From positions 266,408-330,407 of the forward strand of contig JAJJXM010000063.1 in the NCBI GenBank assembly GCA_024516155.1: a stretch of 64,000 nt of DNA. The letters are read 5' to 3'. How positions within the stretch are numbered: position 1 is the stretch's first letter; each line of letters begins with the position of its first letter. Made by a program: the position numbers and the translations under genes. Below the pieces are notes generated by a model that was not told the DNA's origin, made no database searches, and saw only the letters and a program-made list of their open reading frames with translations. Origin of the DNA: Pyronema omphalodes (Eukaryota > Ascomycota > Pezizomycetes > Pezizales > Pyronemataceae). Shown here piece by piece: positions 1-13,606 of this stretch.

Positions 1-15
1 TGTGCAGGGGGACGG

Positions 16-30
16 GGGTTCGAGTCATCG
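16..30 (+). promoter_or_regulatory. B-box-like element of a unit cut by the window edge
   Basis: GGGTTCGAGTCATCG matches the Pol III B box GGTTCGANTC exactly over ten bases. The same context (TTGTGCAGGGG upstream) follows the T-run in units 7 and 16, so this is the 3' part of a subfamily-e unit whose RNA region lies before the window. Confidence 0.5.
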
Positions 31-395
31 CTGTGCAATGTTTTTGATGAGTGGTCTATAATCTTTGTTTACAAACGAGTTAATGATGTACATTGATATT
101 GATATACCTGGGAATCGTAATTTTGAATTTAGGACTATTTTCCGTTCTTTACATATCTAAGGTAGGAGCAGCATTTCGAATTTGGGGTTTCTTTTTTTTT
201 TTTTTTGATTTCTTTCATTGTGCAGGTTGTCGTATTTCGGGGAGACAAGATTAGTGTGGATATATATATATCTATATATATATATACATCAAACCTGCTA
301 TCTTATTAGCAACAACGAAGCGGCTGTGTTGTTGAGTTGTGGAACAGTTGAGGCAGTGGGTGTGGTTTATATACACCTGACTCAACGAAACCATC

Positions 396-471
396 AGCAA
401 TGTTAGCTCATATAAAGGGTCTATTGAAAAAGGCGTATCCGCCTCAGATATAGCCATGGCTTCTACTTTTT
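396..471 (+). ncRNA. Unit 1, candidate Pol III RNA (subfamily c)
   Basis: TATA box 366-373, 30 nt before the AGC block. The core holds a 5-bp hairpin, AGGCG (431-435) with CGCCT (440-444), where other subfamily-c units pair AAGG with CCTT or TCTT. ATGGCTTC is followed by T5 (467-471). The downstream B box (499-513) is degenerate. Confidence 0.4.
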
Positions 472-803
472 GCAGTCTGAGGGGGTGCGGGGGTGCGTGA
501 TTTCGGATCATGGTTTGGGTGTGGCTTTTGTTGTGGTGGGATTTCGGGTTTGTTTGCGATTTGTTTGAAAGGAGTGGATCACGTAAACTACAATGAGAGG
601 AAATAATTCTTTCGAATTTGGGAATTCTTTTTATTTTCCTTTTTTCTAGATCTCGTGAAGTTGGCTGGCGGCGTGCTGGAGGTGTGTCAGTTTGAATATA
701 TATGAAACATCCCGAGGGAACGAGTAAACAACATACCATCTTTCTTGATACGCAGTTCGGGCAGAGGGGGTGGTTTATATGAAGTCATATCAAATCAACC
801 GTC

Positions 804-877
804 AGCCATTGTAGCTCATATATTGATCATTGACTTAAACCATTGCCCATGGTGACCTTCCATGGCTTCAATTTTTT
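804..877 (+). ncRNA. Unit 2, candidate Pol III RNA (subfamily a)
   Basis: TATA 774-780. The core contains hairpin ACCAT (839-843) with ATGGT (849-853). ATGGCTTCAA leads into T6 at 872-877. B-box-like GGGTTCGGATCATGG at 901-915. The core recurs in units 9, 12 and 21. Confidence 0.45.
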
Positions 878-1230
878 ACTTGATTCGTACAGAGGGACGT
901 GGGTTCGGATCATGGTTTTGGGGTAGTTTTTTTCTTGTGGTCGGCATTGTGTTTTCTGGTTTTGGGATTGAAGGGAGTGGATGATGTAAACTATAATGAG
1001 AGGGAATTATAATTTCAGATTTAGGGCTTCTTTTTATTTTTCTTGTTTCCGGAATGTCGTGATATCGTAGGCTAGCATCGTGCGAGAGGCCAGGGTGAAG
1101 GAATAGAGTGGATTATCTTGGATATGCTGACTTTAGTTTCGGCTGTGTTATTGAGTTGTGGAGTAGTTGAGTAGTTGAGGCAGTGAGTGTGGCTTATAGG
1201 TTAATATACAGCCAGCTTAAAGCAACTATC

Positions 1231-1312
1231 AGCCATCATAACTCATAGAGTACATGTCTCATCTCAAAGATACACCAGTCAAAATGGTAATCTTCGATGG
1301 CTTCAATTTTTT
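1231..1312 (+). ncRNA. Unit 3, candidate Pol III RNA (subfamily b)
   Basis: TATA-like TTAATATA 1201-1208, again 30 nt upstream. The core forms a long interrupted hairpin: AAGAT (1267-1271) and ACCA (1274-1277) pair with TGGT (1285-1288) and ATCTT (1290-1294). End stem AGCCATC with GATGGCT. T6 1307-1312. B box 1337-1351. The core recurs in units 14 and 19. Confidence 0.45.
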
Positions 1313-1648
1313 ACGTGATTTGTACAGAGGGAGCATGGGTTCAGATCATGGTTTAGGGGTGGTTTTTTTCTTGTGGTGGGCATTATGGTTTCTGGTTCTG
1401 GGATTGAAGGGAGTGGATGAAGTAAACTACAATGACAGGGAATAACCATTTCAAATTTAGTGCTCCTTTTTATTCTTTTTATTTCCAGATCTCGTGATGT
1501 CGTAGGCTAGCATCGTGCGGGAAGTCTGGGGGAAGGAATAAGGTGGATTATCTAGGATATGCTGACTTTAGTTTTAGCAACAATGAAGCGGCTGTGTTAT
1601 TGAATTGTGGAGTAGTGGTTTATATACAGTCAACCAAAACCAACTACC

Positions 1649-1729
1649 AGCCATCATAGCTCATATCGTATCCTATGGTTTCGATGGTACATTAGTGAAA
1701 ATAGTGATCTTCGATGGCTTCAATTTTTT
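1649..1729 (+). ncRNA. Unit 4, candidate Pol III RNA (diverged subfamily b)
   Basis: TATA 1619-1626. The closing stem AGCCATC/GATGGCT is kept, but the inner hairpin of subfamily b is weakened. T6 1724-1729. B box 1754-1768. Confidence 0.4.
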
Positions 1730-1904
1730 ACTTGATTTGTACAGAGGGAGCATGGGTTCGGATCATGGTTTGCGCTGTGGTTCTTGTTTCGGTGAATTGT
1801 TTTATTTCGGTTTGAGAGAGTGGATGACGTAAACCTCAATGAGAGGGAATTATAATTGCGATTTTAAATTTTTTTTTTGTGTTTGAAAATGTCTAAACCT
1901 GGCA

Positions 1905-2237
1905 AGTGCCGCCAGTCTACTGTGATTTTGATTTTAATTTTAATTTTGGTGTTGATGTTGATGTTGACGTTAATTTGAATTCGAAACCGATTATGATTAT
2001 GATTATGATGATGACATTCATTACAGTTATAACCCAGTCTGCAACAAAAACAAAAGGCGTATAATTCAGCTAAACACATAACAAAATTTATCACAGTCAC
2101 TATCCATCATAACTACAGTGTACTATATCCGGCAGTTGAGCAGTTGAATCATTGAATCATTGAATCGTCCAGGCCGTGGACGCAGTGGCGGTAGTTTAAG
2201 CAATTTAAGCAACTTAACCGGCTCAGCAGCTTAGCAG
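1905..2237 (+). repeat. Inserted module, copy 1 of 3
   Basis: A ~330-bp segment that appears in three places, each time directly before a subfamily-c unit. It holds degenerate simple repeats (TTTTGATT, GTTGATGTTGAT, GATTATGATTAT, TTGAATCA) and ends in TTTAAGCAA-type repeats. Copies at 5356-5688 and 9656-9988 differ by small indels. Confidence 0.8.
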
Positions 2238-2267
2238 TTTATATACCCCCACCTCAAGCAAAATAAC

Positions 2268-2348
2268 AGCCATCATAGCTCATATAAAAGATTAGTGAAA
2301 AAGGATTGTTTGTCTTAAGATAAAATTTGCCATGGCTTCTACTTTTTT
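2268..2348 (+). ncRNA. Unit 5, candidate Pol III RNA (subfamily c)
   Basis: TATA 2238-2245. AAGG (2301-2304) can pair with TCTT (2313-2316) with one G-U. ATGGCTTCTAC precedes T6 at 2343-2348. B box 2373-2387. Confidence 0.45.
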
Positions 2349-2634
2349 AGTCCGAGGGGGTCGGGGGTGCGGGGGTTCGGATCATGGTTTGGGTGTGTTT
2401 TTGTTTTGGTGGAACTTTTGTTTTATTTTGGAGGGAATCAATGATGCAAATGTACCTGAGGCGGAATAATAATTTCGAATTTGCTTTTCTTTGTTTTTTC
2501 TCGAGATGCAGTGAATTTTGCTGCGTTCCGACAATACGCAAGAAAGATCAGTGAGAATATACATGATATAACTAACCAGCTGGGTTGTTAGGCAGTTGAG
2601 GCGGGTTATATATTGCCAGTTAGTGGTAACTGAC

Positions 2635-2715
2635 AGCCATTACAGCTCATATCAAGTATCACTAGATGAACGGTCTATGTGTGTTTAAGGAGTTTTTCAA
2701 TGGCTTCGATGTTTT
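2635..2715 (+). ncRNA. Unit 6, candidate Pol III RNA (subfamily d)
   Basis: TATA 2605-2612 (GTTATATA). Core beginning CAAGTATCACTAGA, shared with units 15 and 22. T4 2712-2715. B box 2732-2746 has one substitution (GGGTTCCGATT). Confidence 0.4.
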
Positions 2716-3076
2716 AGTCTGAGGGGAGCGTGGGTTCCGATTATGGTTTGGGGGGTTTTTCTTTTTGTTTTGGTAAGATTCAGGATTCGGGATTCGGAGT
2801 TTTTGGTTTCTAGTTCTTGATTCTTGGAGGCGCGATTTGTATGGATGTTTCGAAGAATATGGGACTATGGAACGAAGATTCATATGAGGGGAAATGATCA
2901 CTTCGAATTTAGTTTTCTCGCTATTCCAAAGTTTTTAGACTCTGCAGCGTTCGGGCTGTCATGGAAAACGTTTAGTCTGGATATATATCAAACCTCCCGA
3001 GGAAATACTACAAAACAACTGTGTTCTTATTCAGTAGTCGGGACTGTTTATCTATAGCCAATGAGAATTGACTATC

Positions 3077-3163
3077 AGCCATCATAGCTCATACCATTTG
3101 CTCTGTCTATGTTCGCAGGAGAGATCCAGGCAAACCAAGCCAGGTTTATGGCTTCACTTTTTT
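3077..3163 (+). ncRNA. Unit 7, candidate Pol III RNA (subfamily e)
   Basis: TATA-like TTTATCTATA 3047-3056. The core matches unit 16, but the long hairpin carries two mismatches. T6 3158-3163. B box 3187-3201 reads GGGTTCGAGTC, a perfect ten-base B-box core. Confidence 0.45.
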
Positions 3164-3541
3164 GGTTGATTTGTGCAGGGGGACGGGGGTTCGAGTCATC
3201 GCTGTGGAATGTTTGTGATAAGTGATCTACAATCTTTGTTTTCAAAGGAGTTAATCATGTACAGTGATGTACCGGGAAATTGTACTTTGGAATTTAGGAC
3301 TATTTTCCGTTCTTTACATATCCAAGGTAGGAGCAGCATTTCCAATTTGGGGTTTCTTTTTTTTTTTTTTTTTGACTGCAGCTTTCCGTATTTTGGGGAG
3401 ACAAGATTAGTGTGGATATATATATATATATATACCAAACCTGCTATCTTCTTAGCAACAACGAAGCGGCTGTGTTGTTGAGTTGTGGAACAGTTGAGGC
3501 AGTGGGTGTGGTTTATATACCACCACCTCTAGCAAAACAAC

Positions 3542-3623
3542 AGCCATCATAGCTCATGTAAAAGATTATTTAAAAAGGATTGTTTGTCTTAAGATAAAAA
3601 TTGCCATGGCTTCTACTTTTTTT
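3542..3623 (+). ncRNA. Unit 8, candidate Pol III RNA (subfamily c)
   Basis: TATA 3512-3519. The core is nearly identical to unit 17. T7 3617-3623. B box 3657-3671 (GGGTTCGGTTC). Confidence 0.45.
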
Positions 3624-3980
3624 AATCCGAGGGGGTGCGGGGGTGTGGGAGTGCGGGGGTTCGGTTCATGGTTTGGGTGTGGTTTTTGTTATGGTGGGAT
3701 TTGGGTTTCGGGGTTGGTTGTTTGTTGTTTGTGGTTACTGGTTTATGGTTGAAGGTGTGGATGACGTAAACCTCAATGACAGGGAATAGTTATTTCGAAT
3801 TTAGGCCCCTTTTTTGTTTTTGTTTCCGGGATGTCGTGGAGTTGACAGCGTACTGGAGGTCTGGTAGTTTAGACATATATCAAGCATGTCAAGTAACCGA
3901 GGAAACAACATACCATCATTCTTCATAACCAGCCGAGACATCGCGGATGGTTTATATAAAGTCATCTCAAATTAACCGTC

Positions 3981-4054
3981 AGCCATTGTACCTCATATAT
4001 TGATAATTGAAATAAACCAATAACCAGGGTGACCTTCGATGGCTTCAGTTTTTT
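3981..4054 (+). ncRNA. Unit 9, candidate Pol III RNA (subfamily a, diverged)
   Basis: TATA 3951-3958. The core hairpin seen in unit 2 is degraded. T6 4049-4054. B box 4079-4093. Confidence 0.4.
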
Positions 4055-4362
4055 ACTTGATTTGTACAGAGAGGGCATGGGTTCGGATCACAGTTTGCGC
4101 TGTGGTTCTGGTTTCGGTGGATCGTTTTATTTTGGTTGGAGAGAGTGGACGATGTAACTATAACTGAGGCGGAATAATGATTTCGAATTTGGAGTTTTAT
4201 TTTCTTTTTTCGAGATGTCGTAAACGTTGCAGATTTCCCGCGGTCTATAAGAAAGATCGGTCAGAAGGTACATCAAATATCATAACTTCCTAGCAACAGC
4301 GAACAGAATGTGCTGTTAGGTAGTTCAGGCGGGTTATATACTGCAACTAAGCACGGATTAGC

Positions 4363-4450
4363 AGCCATCATAGCTAATATAGAAGCATTACTAAAAGAAC
4401 GTTCTGTGTGTCAACTCATGGATGTAATACTTCAATGGCTTCAGTTTTTT
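4363..4450 (+). ncRNA. Unit 10, candidate Pol III RNA (subfamily f)
   Basis: TATA 4333-4340. A long inner stem: GAAG (4382-4385) and ATTAC (4387-4391) pair with GTAAT (4424-4428) and CTTC (4430-4433), with a C-A mismatch between. T6 4445-4450. B box 4466-4480. Confidence 0.45.
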
Positions 4451-4714
4451 GGTCCGGGGGAGCGTGGGTTCGGAACATGGTTTGGGTTGTGTTTTGTTCT
4501 TGGGGTGGGGTTTGTGGTTTGTAGTTTTTGTTTTTTGGAGGCGCGATTCGTTTGGATATTTTATGGAATATAGTACGTATGTGGTGAGGATGGATGCCAG
4601 CGGGAAGCATCATTTTGAATTTGAACTTCGTTTTTGGTTTCGAAACTTTCCAACCCGTCAAGTGTTGTTAGGAGGCCAGGGCAGGTTATATACGACTAGT
4701 CGTTTCAAACGAAC

Positions 4715-4803
4715 AGCCATCATAGCTCATATCATATGTGACAAAAAAGACAAGGATCATATGCGGTAAAGATACTAGGTTATTGTTATGGCTTCAAATT
4801 TTT
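4715..4803 (+). ncRNA. Unit 11, candidate Pol III RNA (single-member core g)
   Basis: TATA 4685-4692. The core is unique in the window; two CATATG copies could pair. T5 4799-4803. B-box-like 4820-4834 (GGATTCGGTTC). Confidence 0.4.
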
Positions 4804-5104
4804 AGTCTGAGGGGAGCGTGGATTCGGTTCATGGTTTGCGCTGTGGTTGTTGTTTTGGTGGGATGTTTTGTTTTGGTTTGAAGGAGTGGATGATGTAAAC
4901 TAAAATGAGGGGAAATTATAATTGCGATTTTGAACTTTTTTTTTTGTGTTCGACAATGTCTAAACCTGGCAAGGTGCCGCCAGTCAGGGGCTAAGTTCAG
5001 TCTGGAATATATCAAACATCCCGAGAAAAGAACATACTGTCTGTCTTAATAAGAAGTTTGGGCAGAGGAGGTGGTTTATATACAGCCAACAAACAACAAA
5101 TATC

Positions 5105-5178
5105 AGCCATTGTAGCTCATATATTGATAATTGAAATAAACCATTGCCCATGGTGACCTTCCATGGCTTCAATTTTTT
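5105..5178 (+). ncRNA. Unit 12, candidate Pol III RNA (subfamily a)
   Basis: TATA 5075-5082. Core as in unit 2 with the ACCAT/ATGGT hairpin intact. T6 5173-5178. B box 5203-5217. Confidence 0.45.
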
Positions 5179-5355
5179 ACTTGATCTAGCCCGGGGAGGT
5201 GTGGGTTCGGATCATGGTTTGAGCTGTGGTTGTTGTTTCGGTGGAATATTTTATTTTGGGCTGAAGGGAGTGCATGATGTAAACTAAAATGAGGGGAAGA
5301 TATAATTGCGATTTTAAACATTTTTTGATGTTTGACAATGGCTAAACCTGGCAAC

Positions 5356-5688
5356 GTGCCGCCAGTGTACTGTGATTTTCATTTTAATTTTGGGGTTGAT
5401 GTTGATGTCGATGTTGATTTGAATTCGAATCCGATTATGATTATAATTATGACTATGATGATGACATTGATTACAGTCATAACCCAGTCTACAACAAAAA
5501 CAAAAGGCATAGAATTCAGCTAACCACATAACGAAACTTATCACAGTCACTATCCATCCTAACTACAGTGTACTATATCCCGCAGTTGAGCAGTTAAATC
5601 ATTGAATCGTTGAATCGTCCATGCCGTGGACGCAGTGGCAGTAGTTTAAGCAATTTAAGCAATTTAAGCAATTTCAGCAGCTTAGCAG
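5356..5688 (+). repeat. Inserted module, copy 2 of 3
   Basis: Same ~330-bp module as 1905-2237, again ending directly before a subfamily-c unit (unit 13). Confidence 0.8.
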
Positions 5689-5718
5689 TTTATATACCCC
5701 CACCTCAAGCAAAACAAC

Positions 5719-5795
5719 AGTCATCATAGCTCATATGAAAGATTATTTGAAAAGGATTGTCTGCCTTAAATGTAGCGATGGCTTCTACTGTTTTT
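5719..5795 (+). ncRNA. Unit 13, candidate Pol III RNA (subfamily c)
   Basis: TATA 5689-5696. AAGG (5752-5755) pairs with CCTT (5764-5767), fully Watson-Crick where unit 5 has a G-U. T5 5791-5795. B box 5813-5827. Confidence 0.45.
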
Positions 5796-6054
5796 AGTCT
5801 GAGGGGGTACGTGGGTTCGGTTCATGGTTTGTGTGTAGTTTTTGTTTTGTCCTCTGTCTCTAAGATGGTAAACTGGGAGTTTTATTTTCATTTTTTCTAG
5901 ATCTCGTGAAGTTGACTGGCGGCGTGCTGGGGGTCTGGCAGTTGAGATATATATCAAGCATGTCAAGTAACCGAGTAAACAACATATTGTCTGTATGAAT
6001 AAGCAGCTTGAGCGGAGGGGGTGGTTTATATACAGCCAGCTTAAACCAAATATC

Positions 6055-6135
6055 AGCTTTCATAGCTCATAGAGGACTTTCAGATTTCAAAGATACACCA
6101 GTTAAAATGGTAATCTTCGATGGCTTCGATTTTTT
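6055..6135 (+). ncRNA. Unit 14, candidate Pol III RNA (subfamily b)
   Basis: TATA 6025-6032. The inner AAGAT/ACCA/TGGT/ATCTT hairpin is as in unit 3. The 5' block is AGCTTTCATAGCTCATA, which weakens the end stem. T6 6130-6135. B box 6160-6174. Confidence 0.45.
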
Positions 6136-6450
6136 ACTTGATTTGTACAGAGAGAGCATGGGTTCGGATCATGGTTTGTGCTGTGGTTCTTGTTTCGGTG
6201 AATCGTTTTATTTTGGTTTGACAGAGTGGATGATGTAAACGAAAATCAAAGGGAATAAGAATTGCCAGTTTAGGGTTTCTTTTTTTCGGTTTTGTTTTCG
6301 GGATGTCGTAAACTTTGCAGTTTTCCCGCGGTTTATAATAAAGATCGGTCAGAAAATACATCAATTATACTAACTTCTTAGCAACAGCGAACAGCCTGTG
6401 CTGTTGGGCAGTTGAGGCGGGTTATATATTGCAAGTCAGTACGAATCCAT

Positions 6451-6531
6451 AGCCATTATAGCTCATATCAAGTATCACTAGAATAACGGTCTATGTACGT
6501 TTATAACGCTTTGCAATGGCTTCGATTTTTT
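6451..6531 (+). ncRNA. Unit 15, candidate Pol III RNA (subfamily d)
   Basis: TATA 6421-6428. Core as in units 6 and 22. T6 6526-6531. B box 6548-6562. Confidence 0.4.
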
Positions 6532-6888
6532 AGTCCGAGGGGAGCGTGGGTTCGGATCATGGTTTGGGGTTTTTTTCTTTTTGTTTTGGTGGGATTCTGG
6601 ATGCGGGCTTTTTGGTTTCTGGTTCTTGATTCTTGTGGGCGCAATTTGTATGGATGTTTCGAGGAATATGGGAGTATGGAACAAAGATTCATATGAGGGG
6701 AAACGGTCATTTGGAATTTATTTTTCTTGCTATTCGACAGTTTTTGAGCTCTGCAGCGTTCCGGCTGTCAGGGAAAATGTTTAGTCTGGATATATATCCA
6801 ACCTTCCGAGAAAATACAACAAAACAACTGTGTTGTTGTTGTTGAGTAGTCGTGACTGTTTATATATCGCCAACGAGAACCAACTATC

Positions 6889-6975
6889 AGCCATCATAGC
6901 TCATATCTTTTGCTCTGTCTATGTTCGCAGGAGAGAACCAGGCAAACCAAGCCTGGTTTATGGCTTCACTTTTTT
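6889..6975 (+). ncRNA. Unit 16, candidate Pol III RNA with perfect 8-bp hairpin (subfamily e)
   Basis: TATA 6859-6866. AACCAGGC (6936-6943) and GCCTGGTT (6951-6958) form a perfect stem over a 7-nt loop, next to the 3' ATGGCTTC strand, where a tRNA would carry its T arm. T6 6970-6975. B box 6999-7013 has the perfect core GGTTCGAGTC. Confidence 0.5.
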
Positions 6976-7354
6976 GGTTGATTTGTGCAGGGGTCCGGGG
7001 GTTCGAGTCATCGCTGTGCAATGTTTTTGATAAGTGGTCTATACTCTTTGTTTCCACAGGAGTTAATGATGTACATGGACATTGATATACCTGGGAATCG
7101 TACTTTTGAATTTGGGGCTCTTTCCCGTTCTTTACATATCTAAGGTAGAAGCATCATTTTGCATTTGGGGTTTCTTTTTTTTTTTTTTTTTTGACTGCAG
7201 CTTTCCGTATTTCGGGGAGACAAGATTAGTGTGGATATATATATATATCAAACATGCTATCTTCTTAGCAATAACGAAGCGGCTGTGTTGTTGAGTTGTG
7301 GAACAGTTGAGGCAGTGGGTGTGGTTTATATACCACCACCTCTAGCAAAACAAC

Positions 7355-7436
7355 AGCCATCATAGCTCATATAAAAGATTATTTAAAATGGATTGTTTGT
7401 CTTAAGATAAAAATTGCCATGGCTTCTACTTTTTTT
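7355..7436 (+). ncRNA. Unit 17, candidate Pol III RNA (subfamily c)
   Basis: TATA 7325-7332. Near-copy of unit 8. T7 7430-7436. B box 7461-7475. Confidence 0.45.
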
Positions 7437-7752
7437 AATCCGAGGGGCGCGTGGGTGCGGGGGTTCGGATCATGGTTTGGGTGTGTTTTTTGTTTTGGTG
7501 GAATTTCTGTGTGGTTGTGGAGGAGGTTAATGATGTAAATGTACCTGAGGCGGAATAATGATTTCGAATTCGCTTTCCTTTGTTTGTTCTCAAGAAGCAG
7601 TAGATTTCGTAAAGAGCCGCTAGTCTGGGAATCACGACAAAGATTAGTTTGGATATACATCAAGAAATATCCTAACTTCGAAGCATGAACGAACCGGCTG
7701 TGTTGTTAGGCAGCTGAGGCAGGTTGTATACTGCAAGTCAATACGAATCCAT

Positions 7753-7800
7753 AGCCATTATAGCTCATATAAAAGAGATCATAACCTCATGAGCTGAGTA
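7753..7800 (+). ncRNA. Unit 18, truncated candidate RNA
   Basis: Degenerate TATA (GTTGTATA 7723-7730) and the AGCC/TAGCTCATA block are present at 30-nt spacing. The core, ATGGCTTC and T-run are missing, and the sequence runs into the promoter region of unit 19. Confidence 0.3.
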
Positions 7801-7914
7801 GTGTCGAGTAGTTGGGACAGCTTGAGGCAGTGGTAGTGGTGGTTGGGGTTTACGCAGCTTGAGCAGCTTGATCAGCTTGAGCGGTTTATTCACAGCCAAC
7901 TCAAACCACCTATC

Positions 7915-7995
7915 AGCCATCATAGCTCATAGAAGACGATCTGATTACAAAGATACACCAGTTAAAATGGTAATCTTCGATGGCTTCGGTTTTTT
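7915..7995 (+). ncRNA. Unit 19, candidate Pol III RNA (subfamily b)
   Basis: TATA-like TTTATTCA 7885-7892, 30 nt upstream. Subfamily-b hairpin intact. T6 7990-7995. B box 8020-8034. Confidence 0.4.
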
Positions 7996-8295
7996 ACTTG
8001 ATTTGTACAGATCGGGCATGGGTTCGGATCATGGTTTGGGTTATTTCTTTTGGTGTGGTGGGATTTGTTGCGTAGTTTGAAGAGCGGCTATCATGGGGAC
8101 GTATACGAGGGGAAATAATCATTTCAAATTTGGATTTTTTTCAAGATGCAGTGAATTTTGCAGCTTTCCGCCAGTCTGGTATAAATTTAAGTCTGGATGT
8201 ATATGTCCAATACCCTATCTTCGAAGCATCAACGAACCGGCTAGGTTGTTAGGCAGCTGAGGCAGGTTTCATACCGCAAGTTAGCAGGGATTGAC

Positions 8296-8370
8296 AGCCA
8301 TCATAGCTCATATAGGTTGAAAAAGGATAATCTGCCTTAGATAAAAGTTGCGATGGCTTCTACTTTTTTT
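8296..8370 (+). ncRNA. Unit 20, candidate Pol III RNA (subfamily c)
   Basis: Weak TATA (GTTTCATA 8266-8273). The core keeps AAGG pairing with CCTT. T7 8364-8370. The B box at 8388-8400 is degenerate (GGGTTTGGATCC). Confidence 0.35.
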
Positions 8371-8654
8371 AGTCCGAGGGGGTGCGTGGGTTTGGATCCT
8401 TGTTTCGGTGTGGTTTTTGTTATGGTGGGATTGGTGGTTGCTGGTTTGAAGGGTGTGGAGGATGTAGATGAAAATGTGGAATAATCGTAATTGTGAATTT
8501 GAGCGTTGTGTTTGTTTTTTCAAGGTGTCGTGAAGTTTGCAGCGTACCGACAAATTATATTACAAACATCCCGAGTCAACAACATACAGTCTGTCTTGAT
8601 AAGCAGCCGAGACATCGCAGATGGTTTATATAAAGTCATCTCAAATGGACCGTC

Positions 8655-8728
8655 AGCCATTGTAGCTCATATATTGATCATTGAGATAAACCATTGCCCA
8701 TGGTGACCTTCCATGGCTTCAATTTTTT
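8655..8728 (+). ncRNA. Unit 21, candidate Pol III RNA (subfamily a)
   Basis: TATA 8625-8632. ACCAT/ATGGT hairpin intact. T6 8723-8728. B box 8753-8767. Confidence 0.45.
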
Positions 8729-9036
8729 ACTTGATTTGTACAGAGAGGGCATGGGTTCGGATCATGGTTTGGGTGTGTTTTGTTTTGTTTTGGTGGAAGT
8801 TTTGTGTGGTTGTGGAGGGAGTTAATGATGTAAATGTACCTGAGGCGGAATAAGGATTTCGAATTTGCTTTCCTTTTTTTCTCTGGAAATGTAGTGAATC
8901 TTGCTGCGTTCCGACAATACGCGAGAAAGAGCAGCGAGAATATACATGATATATCCTGACTTCTAAGCAACAGCGAACCTGCTGGGTTGTTGGCAAGCTG
9001 GGGGAGGTTATATACTGCCAGTTGGTGGATAGCAAC

Positions 9037-9117
9037 AGTCATTATAGCTCATATCAAGTATCACTAGAGGAACGGTCTATGTGTGTTTAAGGAGTTTTTC
9101 AATGGCTTCGATTTTTT
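9037..9117 (+). ncRNA. Unit 22, candidate Pol III RNA (subfamily d)
   Basis: TATA 9007-9014. Core as in units 6 and 15. T6 9112-9117. B box 9134-9148. Confidence 0.4.
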
Positions 9118-9455
9118 AGTCCGAGGGGAACGTGGGTTCGGATCATGGTTTGGGTTATGTTTTTGGGGTGGTGGGGTTTGTTATGATGGGATTTGGGGTT
9201 GCTAGTTTTTGGTTTCTGGTTGAAGGGAGTGGAGGATGTAAACAACAATCAAAGGGAATCATAATTTCGAATTTAGGGATTCTTTTTTTTCTTTTCATTT
9301 CCGGGATGTCATGGAGTTGACCGAGTGCTAAAGGTCTGGCAGTTTAGATATATATCAAACATCTCAAGTAACCGAGAAAACAACATACCATCTTTCTTGA
9401 TACGCAGTTTGAGCGGAGGGGGTGGTTTATATACAGCCAGCTTAAAGCAAATATC

Positions 9456-9495
9456 AGCCATCATAGCTCATAGAGTACTGTCTGATTTATATTTT
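9456..9495 (+). ncRNA. Unit 23, internally deleted candidate RNA
   Basis: Good TATA (9426-9433) and 5' block, but most of the core and ATGGCTTC are deleted; only T4 (9492-9495) and a B-box-like 9518-9532 follow. Probably non-functional. Confidence 0.3.
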
Positions 9496-9655
9496 ACTTG
9501 ATTTGTACAGGGGGCGTGGATTCGGATCATGGTTTGCTCTGTGGTTGTTATTTCGGTGGAATGTTTTATTGTTGGCTGAAGGGAGTGCATGATGTAAAGT
9601 AAAATGAGGGGAAATTATAATTGCGATTTTGAACTTCTTTTTGTGTTTGAAGATA

Positions 9656-9988
9656 CGTGCCGCCAGTGTACTGTAATTTTCATTTTGATGTTGGTGTTGG
9701 TGTTGACGTTGATGTTGATTTTGACTCGAATCCGATTATGATTATGATTATGATGATGACATTGATTACAGTTATAACCCAGTCTACAGCAAAAAAAAAA
9801 AGGCATATATTCCAGCTAACCACATAACAAAACTTATCACAGTCACTATCTATTATAACTACAGTGTACTATATCCCGCAGTTGAGCAGTTGAATGAATC
9901 ATTGAATCGTTGAATCGTCCAGGCCATGGACGCAGTGGCAGTAGTTTAAGCAACTTAAGCAATTTAAGCAATTTATGCAGCTTGGCAG
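9656..9988 (+). repeat. Inserted module, copy 3 of 3
   Basis: Third copy of the ~330-bp module at 1905-2237, ending directly before unit 24 (subfamily c). Confidence 0.8.
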
Positions 9989-10018
9989 TTTATATACCCC
10001 CACCTCAAGCAAAACAAC

Positions 10019-10093
10019 AGCCATCATAGCTCATATAAAAGATTATTTAAAAAGGATTGTTTGTCTTAAGACGAAAATTGCCATGGCTTCTTT
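10019..10093 (+). ncRNA. Unit 24, candidate RNA lacking its T-run (subfamily c)
   Basis: TATA 9989-9996. Core intact, but only TTT follows ATGGCTTC, too short for normal Pol III termination. B box 10119-10133. Confidence 0.3.
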
Positions 10094-10450
10094 AGTCCGA
10101 GGGGGTTCGGGGGTTCGGGGGTTCGGATCAGGGTTTCGGGGTGGGTTTTTTTCTTGTGGTGGGATTTGGGGTTTCTGGTTTCTGGTGGGATTTGTGGTTT
10201 TTGGTTTGAAGGGAGCGGTTTGAAAGAGTGGATGACGCAAACTACAATGAGAGGGAATAATAATTTCGAATTTAGGGATCCTTTTTTTTGTTTTTGTTTC
10301 CGGGTTGTCGTGGAGTTGGCTGGCGGCGTGCTGGAGGTCTGGCAGTTTGGATATATATCAGACATCCCAAGTCAATAACACACAGTCTGTCTGAATAAGC
10401 AGTTTGAGCGGAGGGGGTGGTTTATATAAACCCAACTTGAACCAAATATC

Positions 10451-10510
10451 GGCCACTATAGCTCCTATGGTATTTCATGTACACAGCTCACCGCCATGGC
10501 TGTCGATTTT
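10451..10510 (+). ncRNA. Unit 25, diverged candidate RNA
   Basis: TATA 10421-10428 at the usual 30-nt spacing, 5' block GGCCACTATAGCTCCTA, short core, ATGGCTGTCGA then T4 (10507-10510). The inverted-repeat element at 10554-12156 has inserted about 40 bp downstream. Confidence 0.3.
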
Positions 10511-10572
10511 GGCAGGAGGGACGTGGATGCAAGTCGTGATTTGTGCGGTGTTTCCCTGTGGTACAAAAAAAA

Positions 10573-10968
10573 GGTGTTTAATCAAACCACACTTTAAACC
10601 ACAAAAGGTGTTTAATTCAAACACCCACAAAATTCATTTACTAAACACCTCTTTAAACACCTACTAAACACCTTTAAACACCTACTAAACACCTCTTTAA
10701 ACACCTACTAAACACCTCTTTAAACACCTACTAAACACCTTTAAACACCTACTAAACACCTCTTTAAACACCTACTAAACACCTTTAAACACCTACTAAA
10801 CACCTCTTTAAACACCTACTAAACACCTTTAAACACCGATTTAAACACCGATCCAAACACCTTTAAACACCTTTAAACACCGATCTAAACACCTACTAAA
10901 CACCTTTAAACACCGATTTAAACACCTTTAAACACCTTTAAACACCGATTTAAACACCTTGCACAATA
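10573..10968. repeat. AAACACC direct array
   Basis: Dozens of TTTAAACACC, TACTAAACACC and CGATTTAAACACC words in mixed order fill about 400 bp. The spacing is about 10-12 bp but irregular. It is not a canonical fungal telomere repeat. Confidence 0.9.
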
Positions 10969-10999
10969 GTGGTTTGATCAAGCACCTCAGATATTTTTT

Positions 11000-11670
11000 A
11001 AATGTTTTAAATTAATTACTAAACCACTCGCTCATTATATAACATGTCTCTAGCTATTGCCAGGTCCTCTATCTATACATACAGGAACCTCCCACCTCCC
11101 TCCTCACCCCTCTTACTCCTGCTCCTGCTCTCTGTATAGTACCATTCGCTTTGTGCCTTTTTTAATTGACCCTTACATATGCTGGAATCATGGATCGCTT
11201 CAATAAATAGACTTAGGTTTTCTGAGCATCCTGTTTGTCTGGTTAGCATTGTAGATATTTGTGGGGTTGGTTTGCAGTACTTGACTCAGCGAGTATCTAG
11301 AAGTTCATATCCCCCCCCCCCCCACCCCTCTCTCCCTTTTGTCTCTCCGGTGGCGTATGGTGTATGAACTAGCAAATTCTGTAGAGGGACAAACATTTGA
11401 CATGAGGAAAAACTTACAGTCAAACAAGACGGAAAGATGGAGGTGGAGAAACAAGTGAATGAAATGGATGAAGAACGAGGAACAACAACGGCAGAACGAA
11501 CAGAACATAAGGAAGGGATGCGCACTAAGGCAATATCCACTTCCATCAACAAACATAAGCAGAACACAGCTCTACAGTTTAAAACTGAATGTTCAGTAGA
11601 ACACTGCAGGGTGATTTATATGAACCATGGAAAAGCCATCCCTAGGAAGTGGACTGTAGATGTTTATTTG
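11000..11670. other. Unassigned interior of the TIR element
   Basis: It contains CT-rich stretches, a C10 run near 11312 and an open frame at 11437-11694 (plus) with no recognised motif. It may be captured genomic DNA. No gene is called. Confidence 0.4.
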
Positions 11671-11718
11671 AACATCAGAGGACAGTTCAAATAAACCCCG
11701 AAGAATAAGCGAAGAAGA

Positions 11719-12120
11719 AGGTGTTTATTTGAACACCCCTAGGGTGTTTAAATAAAGACCGAAGAATAAGCGAAAAAGAAGGTGTTTATTTAAACATCCT
11801 TAAACACCCCTAGGATGTTTAAATAAACACCGAAGAATAAGCGAAAAAGAAGGTGTTTATTTAAACACCCCTAGGGTGTTTAAATAAACCCCTCAAAAAA
11901 AAAAATCAAGGTAGTTGTTTAACTAAACAACGCTGGGTGGTTTAGCTAAACACCGTAAATGACACTAAACAACTTCGGTGTTTAGGGGTGTTTAACTAAA
12001 CACCTTTAAACAACGATGGGTGGTTTAGCTAAACACCTTAAATCAGACTAAACAACTTTGGTGTTTAGGGTGTTTAACTAAACACTTTCGGTGTTTAGCT
12101 AAACCACGAAGGTGTTTGAA
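11719..12120. repeat. Palindromic GGTGTTTA / TAAACACC array
   Basis: Three tandem units of about 60-70 bp (from 11719) each pair GGTGTTTATTT with AAATAAACACC-like arms around CCCCTAGGG, separated by GAAGAATAAGCGAAAAAGAA. A further set to 12120 uses TTTAGCTAAAC arms. Strong cruciform or hairpin potential. Confidence 0.8.
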
Positions 12121-12475
12121 CTAAACCACTGTCACTCGTTTTCTTGTACCATAGGGTGTTTCTTGGTGTGGAATTTGGAGTTTGTGGTTTGTGGTTTGTG
12201 GTTTGTGGTTTGTGGTTTGTGGTTTGTGGTTTTTGGTTTTTGGTTTGCAGGGAGAATGTAGTGAGGATGGATAGGAGGGGAATTATAATTGCGTATTTGG
12301 TGTTTCTTTCCTTTTGTTTTCCTCGACATGTCGTAAACGTTGCAGCTTTTCCGCGGTCTATAATAAAGATCGGTCAGATGATACATCAATTACACTAACT
12401 TCTTAGCAACAGCGAACAGCCTGTGTTGTTAGGAAGCTGAGGCGGGTTATATACTGCAAGTTAGCATGGATCATC

Positions 12476-12563
12476 AGCTATCCTAACTCACATAGAAGCA
12501 TTACTACAAGAACGTTCTATGTTTAACCTCATAGAGGTAATAATTCAATTACTTCAGTTTTTT
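12476..12563 (+). ncRNA. Unit 26, candidate Pol III RNA (subfamily f)
   Basis: TATA 12446-12453. Core related to unit 10, keeping ATTAC/GTAAT pairing. ACTTCAG then T6 at 12558-12563. The downstream GGGTTCGCATCC (12579-12590) is one base from a full B box. Confidence 0.4.
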
Positions 12564-12857
12564 GGTCCGGTGGAGCATGGGTTCGCATCCCAGTTTGTGC
12601 GATGTTTTTGTTTTGGTGGAACTTTTGTCTTATTTTGGAGGACATCAATGATGCAAACGAACAGGAGGCGGAATTATAATTGCGAATTTGCTTTCCTTTT
12701 TCCTCTGGAGATGCAGTGAATCTTGCTGCGTTCCGACAATACGCGAGAAAGATCAGCGAGAAAATACATGATTGTCCTGACTTCTAGGCAGCAACTAACC
12801 AGCTGGGTTGTTGGGAAGCCAGAGCAGATCATTTACTTCAGGTTAGCCCGGACTAAC

Positions 12858-12930
12858 AGCCATCATAGCTCATATAAAATACGTTTTGGCAAATGATTGT
12901 AATTGTAGTTTGGCATGGCTTCAAACTTTT
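12858..12930 (+). ncRNA. Unit 27, candidate RNA without TATA
   Basis: The AGCCATCATAGCTCATA block and ATGGCTTC are present, T4 12927-12930, B box 12946-12960. The TATA position (12828-12835) has decayed. Confidence 0.3.
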
Positions 12931-13200
12931 GGTCCGGAGAAGCGTGGGTTCGGATTATGGTTTGGGTGGATTTTCTGTGGTGGGATTTGTGATGTAGATG
13001 GATATGAGGGGGAATCGCATTTTGGATTATTCTTTTGTGTGCTCGAAAATGACTAAACCTGGCAGCTTACTGAAGGACCCGGATAGATTTCAGTCTGGAT
13101 ATATATATCAAGAAATATCCTAACTTTGAAGCATCAACGAACTGTCTGGATCGTTAGGAAGCTGATGGATGCTATATTCCGCAAGTCAGTGATGATTGAT

Positions 13201-13283
13201 TGCCATCATAGCTCATATAAAATGTTTATCTAAAAAAAAAGTGCACATCGGCAAAACTCATTGGGGAACGACTTCAATGTTTT
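13201..13283 (+). ncRNA. Unit 28, decayed candidate RNA at the array end
   Basis: GCTATATT at 13171-13178, TGCCATCATAGCTCATA at 13201, a decayed 3' block (ACGACTTCAATG) and T4 13280-13283. No clear B box. Last unit before the LINE. Confidence 0.3.
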
Positions 13284-13606
13284 GGTTCGAGGGGTGCGTG
13301 GCTTCATATGATGTTTCGACGCATGGTTCGAAGCATGGTTTGTACTGGTTCTTGTGATTCTGGTTTTTGGTTTGAAGGGGGGATCACTCGCACATGGTAT
13401 TACAGTTGAACTTGAACGCCACCAATCACCCCACCTCATTCGTCCTCGTGACTCGATTAAAATTTCATACTCCTCTACCGCCATCCGGGTACACGCCACT
13501 GCAACGCTAATAAAACACCACGTTTTTCGCTTAATTATCCTAATCGGGAAGTCGGAGACAACTCTCACGGCTTCACGAATACCACCCTCCGAGGCCCGTG
13601 GCTCCC

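Follow-up and report, generated by a model that had tools for sequence, protein, structure and literature searches.

Which kind of gene, if any, forms the tandem array of short units at the left end of a 64,000-nucleotide stretch of Pyronema omphalodes DNA? This stretch, the window, corresponds to positions 266408-330407 of a contig labelled C193 (C193:266408-330407) in a genome of 60.8 Mb and 232 contigs. For an RPB2 exon of this genome, among the 120 listed of 7986 matches, the named record with the highest identity was Orbilia oligospora (92% over 88%) and the row with the best E-value was a Marasmius record at 79%; on this basis the source was taken to be an ascomycete. Judged from sequence, the units probably constitute an undescribed family of small RNA genes for RNA polymerase III (Pol III), with a promoter like that of the yeast U6 gene SNR6, an end stem and A-box segment serving as a shared handle, and cores that represent separate RNA species.

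Organization of the array

A total of 39 units on the same strand were counted over 21 kb (C193:258504-279608). The array starts 8 kb upstream of the window, where 11 units are located. The other 28, each on the + strand, occupy the window's left end, with starts from 396 to 13201. Both counts include degenerate units. The 5' block AGCCATCATAGCTCATA, allowing up to three mismatches, occurred 26 times in the window, always on the + strand, while 100 dinucleotide-shuffled sequences gave a mean of 0.07 and a maximum of 1. The roughly 28 TATA-driven, tRNA-sized units of the original prediction were thus recovered.

In the typical unit, TATATA and 22 further bases precede the 5' block AGCCATCATAGCTCATA; the core, 40-56 nt long, is followed by the 3' block ATGGCTTC, 2-5 bases, a run of four to seven T and a B-box-like motif. 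From the start of the 5' block to the end of the 3' block, the units measure 65-81 nt. The TATA lies about 28 bp upstream of the 5' block; a TATA string was present between -40 and -18 in 36 of the 39 units, mostly starting at -29 or -28. The exact 3' block ATGGCTTC was found in 23 of the 28 window units, and the B-box-like motif, near GGTTCGGATCATGG, follows it by 24-44 nt. A unit was considered to carry the full set when it had TATA in -40..-18, the exact ATGGCTTC, a T-run of at least four and the B-box-like motif. The units of the window, from 5' block to 3' block, are as follows.

Unit 1, 396..463, + strand: A4 core, full set; B-box-like motif with 2 mismatches
Unit 2, 804..869, + strand: F core, full set; B-box-like motif at 901-918
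Unit 3, 1231..1304, + strand: C core, full set, TATA at -37; fold z -3.35
Unit 4, 1649..1721, + strand: E core, full set
Unit 5, 2268..2339, + strand: A core, full set
Unit 6, 2635..2707, + strand: D core, full set; T-run of 4
Unit 7, 3077..3155, + strand: B core, full set
Unit 8, 3542..3613, + strand: A core, full set
Unit 9, 3981..4046, + strand: F core, full set
Unit 10, 4363..4442, + strand: G core, full set
Unit 11, 4715..4795, + strand: H core, full set
Unit 12, 5105..5170, + strand: F core, full set
Unit 13, 5719..5785, + strand: A2 core, full set
Unit 14, 6055..6127, + strand: C core, full set
Unit 15, 6451..6523, + strand: D core, full set
Unit 16, 6889..6967, + strand: B core, full set; fold z -2.72
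Unit 17, 7355..7426, + strand: A core, full set
Unit 18, 7753..7769, + strand: 5' block alone; 3' block not found
Unit 19, 7915..7987, + strand: C core; no TATA string in -40..-18
Unit 20, 8296..8360, + strand: A3 core; no TATA string in -40..-18; fold z -2.70
Unit 21, 8655..8720, + strand: F core, full set
Unit 22, 9037..9109, + strand: D core, full set
Unit 23, 9456..9472 (5' block), + strand: start of a C-like core; no true 3' block
Unit 24, 10019..10090, + strand: A core; no T-run of 4 within 18 nt past the 3' block
Unit 25, 10451..10503, + strand: degenerate and short; no B-box-like motif
Unit 26, 12476..12492 (5' block), + strand: G-like core; 3' block degenerate
Unit 27, 12858..12922, + strand: I core; no TATA string in -40..-18
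Unit 28, 13201..13217 (5' block), + strand: 3' end degenerate

The same layout had been claimed for every unit. It held for the 19 window units (29 in the whole array) with the full set; the nine starting at 7753, 7915, 8296, 9456, 10019, 10451, 12476, 12858 and 13201 were incomplete. The median spacing from unit to unit was 420 bp, and two gaps of 3.9 and 2.0 kb interrupted this regularity. Tandem order, fairly regular spacing and the 10 incomplete units of the array would also be found in a decaying satellite derived from an ancient tRNA- or U6-like gene, that is, a functionless pseudogene cluster homogenised by recent duplication and gene conversion. This explanation is possible but, in view of the evidence from the cores and the stems given below, unlikely.

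Conservation of the cores within and between subfamilies

The cores were grouped into A (with variants A2-A4), B, C, D, E and F, together with the singletons G, H and I. Identities between subfamilies were calculated from 478 pairs among 34 of the 39 units, after dropping five degenerate units and treating A and its variants as one subfamily. The 5' block (0.91), the B-box motif (0.84) and the TATA segment (0.72) were conserved between subfamilies, while core identity (0.49) equalled that of mononucleotide-shuffled sequences (0.49), with far spacers at 0.51. The 3' block reached 1.00, a value that is partly circular because the exact block was used to delimit the array units. Identity was 0.66 in the first 45 bases beyond the B box (shuffled, 0.60), and at the shuffled level in -100..-56. 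The presence of many different cores, as originally predicted, is in agreement with these values. Among the 153 aligned pairs of 12 array cores and six cores from outside the array, only ten had z above 3, namely six A-type pairs, C-E, C-F, D-G and one pair outside the array. Thus, some groups have an older ancestor in common and most have no detectable relation. No pair of an outside core with an array core exceeded z 3.

Within subfamilies, the cores behaved differently from their flanks. In MAFFT alignments of six subfamilies (28 of the 39 units), 50 of 286 core columns (17%) were variable and none was gapped, compared with 272 variable and 104 gapped among 600 far upstream columns and 330 and 138 among 693 far downstream columns. 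The far flanks were therefore 45-48% variable and 17-20% gapped (Fisher p 1e-16 and 1e-19 for core against flanks, each column being taken as independent, with no correction for phylogeny). Between the 3' block and the B box, conservation was similar to that of the core (28 of 138 columns variable, p 0.5), indicating that the kept segment runs approximately from TATA to the B box, which is the whole gene. The suggestion that selection spares the core is contradicted by these alignments. Since the cores are random between subfamilies but constrained within them, the family, as far as sequence comparison goes, is a set of distinct constrained sequences and not one RNA with a free core. The contrast was clear in subfamilies A, C, D and F, where the far spacers drift but core and signals do not, and this, together with the lack of gaps in 286 core columns, argues against a decaying satellite.

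End stem and RNA folding

The 5' and 3' blocks are complementary, as had been predicted. Among the 38 array units scored, 13 had all seven pairs of the end stem and two had five; the 23 with six pairs are not notable singly, because 24-101 of 200 shuffles also reached six. A seven-pair stem was matched by 0-5 of 200 shuffles per unit.

Sixteen sites outside the array were scored likewise. Seven pairs were found in five of them (C168, C211:1016k, C167 and two copies on C195), six pairs in five, and five or fewer in six. The ends pair as AGCCAAG/CTTGGCT on C167 and as AGCTATA/TATAGCT in both C195 copies. Relative to AGCCATC/GATGGCT these stems were changed on both strands, which represents compensatory change at two unlinked loci; the C195 copies count as one event because they lie 355 bp apart. 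The C167 stem and the two C195 stems were matched by 0, 1 and 0 of 200 shuffles. Pairing of the RNA ends is supported by these changes, which are not expected of a functionless satellite.

Folding z fell below -2.6 in four of 16 sequences (B, C, A3 and C211:1016k). No shared inner structure and no microRNA-like RNA (milRNA) hairpin was seen among the 16. This bears on the idea that the units encode Pol III-made milRNA precursors, as do milR-1 to milR-4 of Neurospora. The major Neurospora milRNAs require Pol III and have T-runs and TATA-like elements, according to the passages of the report used here (PMC3547838), and the units resemble them in these signals. Given that a common hairpin is lacking and that only the four sequences above fold notably, we consider such precursors very unlikely.

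Promoter signals compared with U6 and tRNA genes

The motif TAGCTCA of the units sits at +9, the position of the first half of a tRNA A box, and in complete units the A and B elements lie about 85-110 bp apart. In both U6 genes of this fungus above the Rfam cut-off, a T-run is followed about 18 nt further by GGTTCGATCC, placing the B box outside the gene (2/2), and one of them has a TATA at about -25. Three further U6-like sequences scored 29-35 bits, under the family cut-off of 44, and are perhaps pseudogenes. TATA was also present in -45..-16 of six of nine tRNA genes (one found by ARAGORN and eight chosen from 63 matches), compared with 5.5% of 30-nt windows in the repeat-rich part of the window.

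The yeast U6 gene SNR6, as described in the part of the source drawn on here, has a TATA at about -30, an A box, a terminator and then an extragenic B box, with 202 bp from A to B (PMC9136082). The units share with it the TATA, the T-run and the extragenic B box, in the same T-run/B-box order as the U6 genes of this fungus, and have a half match to the A box. They differ in that their product is not U6 and that their A-to-B distance is shorter.

The well-kept B-box-like motif, and the position of the array next to retroelement-like sequence, would agree with a role at the DNA level only, in which arrayed TFIIIC-binding sites form a chromatin boundary by a repeat-rich region. The end stem, the T-run and indel-free, subfamily-specific cores would all be needless for such a boundary, and we hardly expect this explanation to hold.

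A tRNA-Lys(CUU) gene that starts with (A)GCCTCGCTAGCTCA and ends with GGGGCT is a tempting candidate parent, since the units likewise have (A)GCC....TAGCTCA at the start and GGC-T at the end. However, its 5' end matched the 5' block at 11 of 17 positions, barely above the 9-10 of the other tRNAs compared. The units themselves are not tRNA genes: ARAGORN detected none in the window, and no D-arm partner, anticodon or T arm was seen.

Searches for known RNA families and for targets

No Rfam family reached its gathering score in the whole window, in agreement with the original view that no described fungal family has this layout. At E ≤5, 14 weak matches were obtained in 1-13400, all below gathering, ten of them in a repeat at 11.7-12.1 kb. 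A worm snoRNA model (20 bits, 48 needed) overlapped the 5' block of unit 23 on the opposite strand. To our knowledge, fungal Pol III gene families are few beyond tRNA, 5S, U6 and some other standard RNAs, and searches of the open-access literature found no fungal family of this kind, Neurospora milRNAs aside. Scanning viral and prokaryotic contig collections by pattern gave no match.

Y RNAs and stem-bulge RNAs have paired ends and variable loops. Both are described, in the passages used, as small stem-loop RNAs encoded by several genes, the stem-bulge RNAs in nematodes (PMC4450293, PMC4726728). Membership in these groups is disfavoured by the lack of Ro60 (TROVE) matches in the genome; one of 14 control genomes matched. 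As regards vault RNAs, a search for the major vault protein (MVP shoulder) found nothing in the genome, and the control genomes were likewise silent.

Variable cores between constant ends and a promoter, beside retroelement-like frames judged by eye, could suggest guide or antisense RNAs whose cores pair with defined target RNAs or with nearby retroelements. A genome-wide search covered cores A, B and D; the first pass forwarded 30, 5 and 6 candidates, and on both strands at E ≤10 no match outside the array was found, though short matches could have escaped detection. For ten cores, the longest exact match to either strand of 345 kb never exceeded the shuffle maximum. These results make guide RNAs doubtful. 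The longest complementary word was 7 between different cores and 10 within one core.

Relatives elsewhere in the genome

The genome could be searched by query only, and the relatives reported here are therefore a lower bound. A whole-unit query gave 36 matches, all inside the array, and queries with cores B and D matched just the members of their own groups (five and six, respectively). The 5' block, with up to two mismatches, occurred at 57 places (8 for the reversed-pattern control), 34 in the array and 23 outside; of 15 outside places inspected, eight were family members and seven had no unit. A variant 5' block occurred at 50 places (control 9), including 19 new ones outside the array, and two of the 17 inspected had no unit. 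The relatives found by the 5' block or its variants include the following.

C157:58.6k
C168:291k
C193:179.5k
C211:1016k
C211:1056k
C195 (two copies)
C200
C167

In most outside relatives, a TATA or near-TATA string is accompanied by a B-box-like motif such as GGTTCGAATCATGG, with varying completeness. C211:1056k has a poor TATA and C200 a poor B box, and the ends were weak at C157:56.5k, C157:57k, C157:59.1k and C193:179.9k. A search with the B box GTTCGAAYCATGGAT, allowing one mismatch, gave 11 places (reversed-pattern control 4); four were known family loci, and the remaining seven, fetched and inspected, had no unit in front.

A tRNA-derived short interspersed element (SINE), with dispersed copies of one consensus, can be ruled out, since all whole-unit matches fell within the array. 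One dispersed SINE with uniform decay, named beforehand as the finding that would speak against the prediction, is not what was observed: unit and core queries matched the array only, and the signals outlast the cores.

No T-run preceded the B box in both C195 copies, C211:1071k, the repeats on C19 and C46, and copies on C135 and C154. The related group on C19, inside a 4.3-kb repeat, agrees with the satellite explanation. Copies of this repeat, about 4.3 kb on C19 (in C19:1-9500) or about 4.5 kb on C46, carry a divergent relative, AGCCATAATGGCTGATG, with TATA and B box.

Proposed expression and function

From the promoter motifs, the stem and the core constraint, which were tested on sequence, we infer transcription, exact RNA ends, a binding protein and its partners. 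The units would form a multigene family of a filamentous ascomycete, giving Pol III RNAs of about 70-95 nt. The TATA at about -28 would position TFIIIB, and TAGCTCA at +9 together with the B box past the 3' block would position TFIIIC, as in the yeast U6 layout. The RNA would start at or near AGCC and end in the T-run, and its two ends would form a stem of 6-7 bp resembling a tRNA acceptor, TAGCTCA lying next to the 5' strand of that stem. Stem and TAGCTCA segment may be a common handle for one shared RNA-binding protein, and each of about ten cores may give the particle its own partner. Tandem duplication would make copies, of which old ones diverge into new cores or decay.

This design resembles that of the dictyostelid Class I RNAs. 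In the passages of the survey used here, these have a short end-joining stem, a conserved motif beside its 5' strand and a variable remainder, with 18-39 genes predicted per species, a T-run downstream of many, and an upstream element, DUSE, some 60 nt before the start; the RNAs of D. discoideum are 42-65 nt long, and these passages report none outside Dictyostelia (PMC7919456). The units likewise have an end stem, an adjacent conserved motif, a variable rest, tens of genes and T-runs, a likeness of general design that leaves the motif letters outside the comparison. They differ in having TATA at -28, half an A box, a downstream B box and a length of 65-81 nt. As promoter, size and organism differ, the Class I RNAs are proposed as the nearest working analogue and not as homologues.

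A more far-reaching and speculative suggestion, which we think unlikely, is a lineage-specific fungal regulatory system in which a single protein binds dozens of Pol III RNAs by their constant stem and A-box segment, with duplicating and diversifying cores as exchangeable specificity modules, as an independent counterpart of the Class I RNAs. More generally, a large constant-handle family with constrained, unrelated cores would provide a new test case for small-RNA diversification, and would point to more than one origin of the Class I design.

Apart from the incomplete units, the circular 3' block and the six-pair stems, several observations weigh against an RNA gene family. The downstream spacer of subfamily B (27 of 109 columns variable) was little worse than its core (11 of 54), which a satellite would explain, and subfamily E consists of a single recent pair whose upstream side has hardly changed; the core contrast thus rests on A, C, D and F. 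Gene conversion of a gene-sized segment would give a similar picture. TAGCTCA, which we take to be the first half of the A-box consensus, is a half match with the GG absent, and the second U6 gene has no TATA string in the 80 bp upstream. Eleven of the 16 outside sites had fewer than seven pairs, and 12 of the 16 folded sequences had z of -1.31 to +0.45. The shared protein is hypothetical. With these points included, a Pol III small-RNA family is still the reading that we consider probable.

Elements within and beside the array

An insertion of about 1.6 kb (window 10554-12156) interrupts the array about 50 bp past the degenerate unit 25. It is bounded by CCCTGTGGTAC and GTACCATAGGG, which are inverted relative to each other with one mismatch, its inside consists of AAACACC-type repeats, and it looks like a terminal-inverted-repeat element. 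The 3.9-kb gap, between the units at C193:259372 and 263306, starts with CCCTATGGTACAT and ends with ATGTACCATAG. These inverted ends resemble those of the first insertion, and a related element was therefore probably inserted there as well. To the right of the array, many Ty3/gypsy-, copia- and LINE-like open frames are located in window 14994-62700, their translations having been judged by eye.

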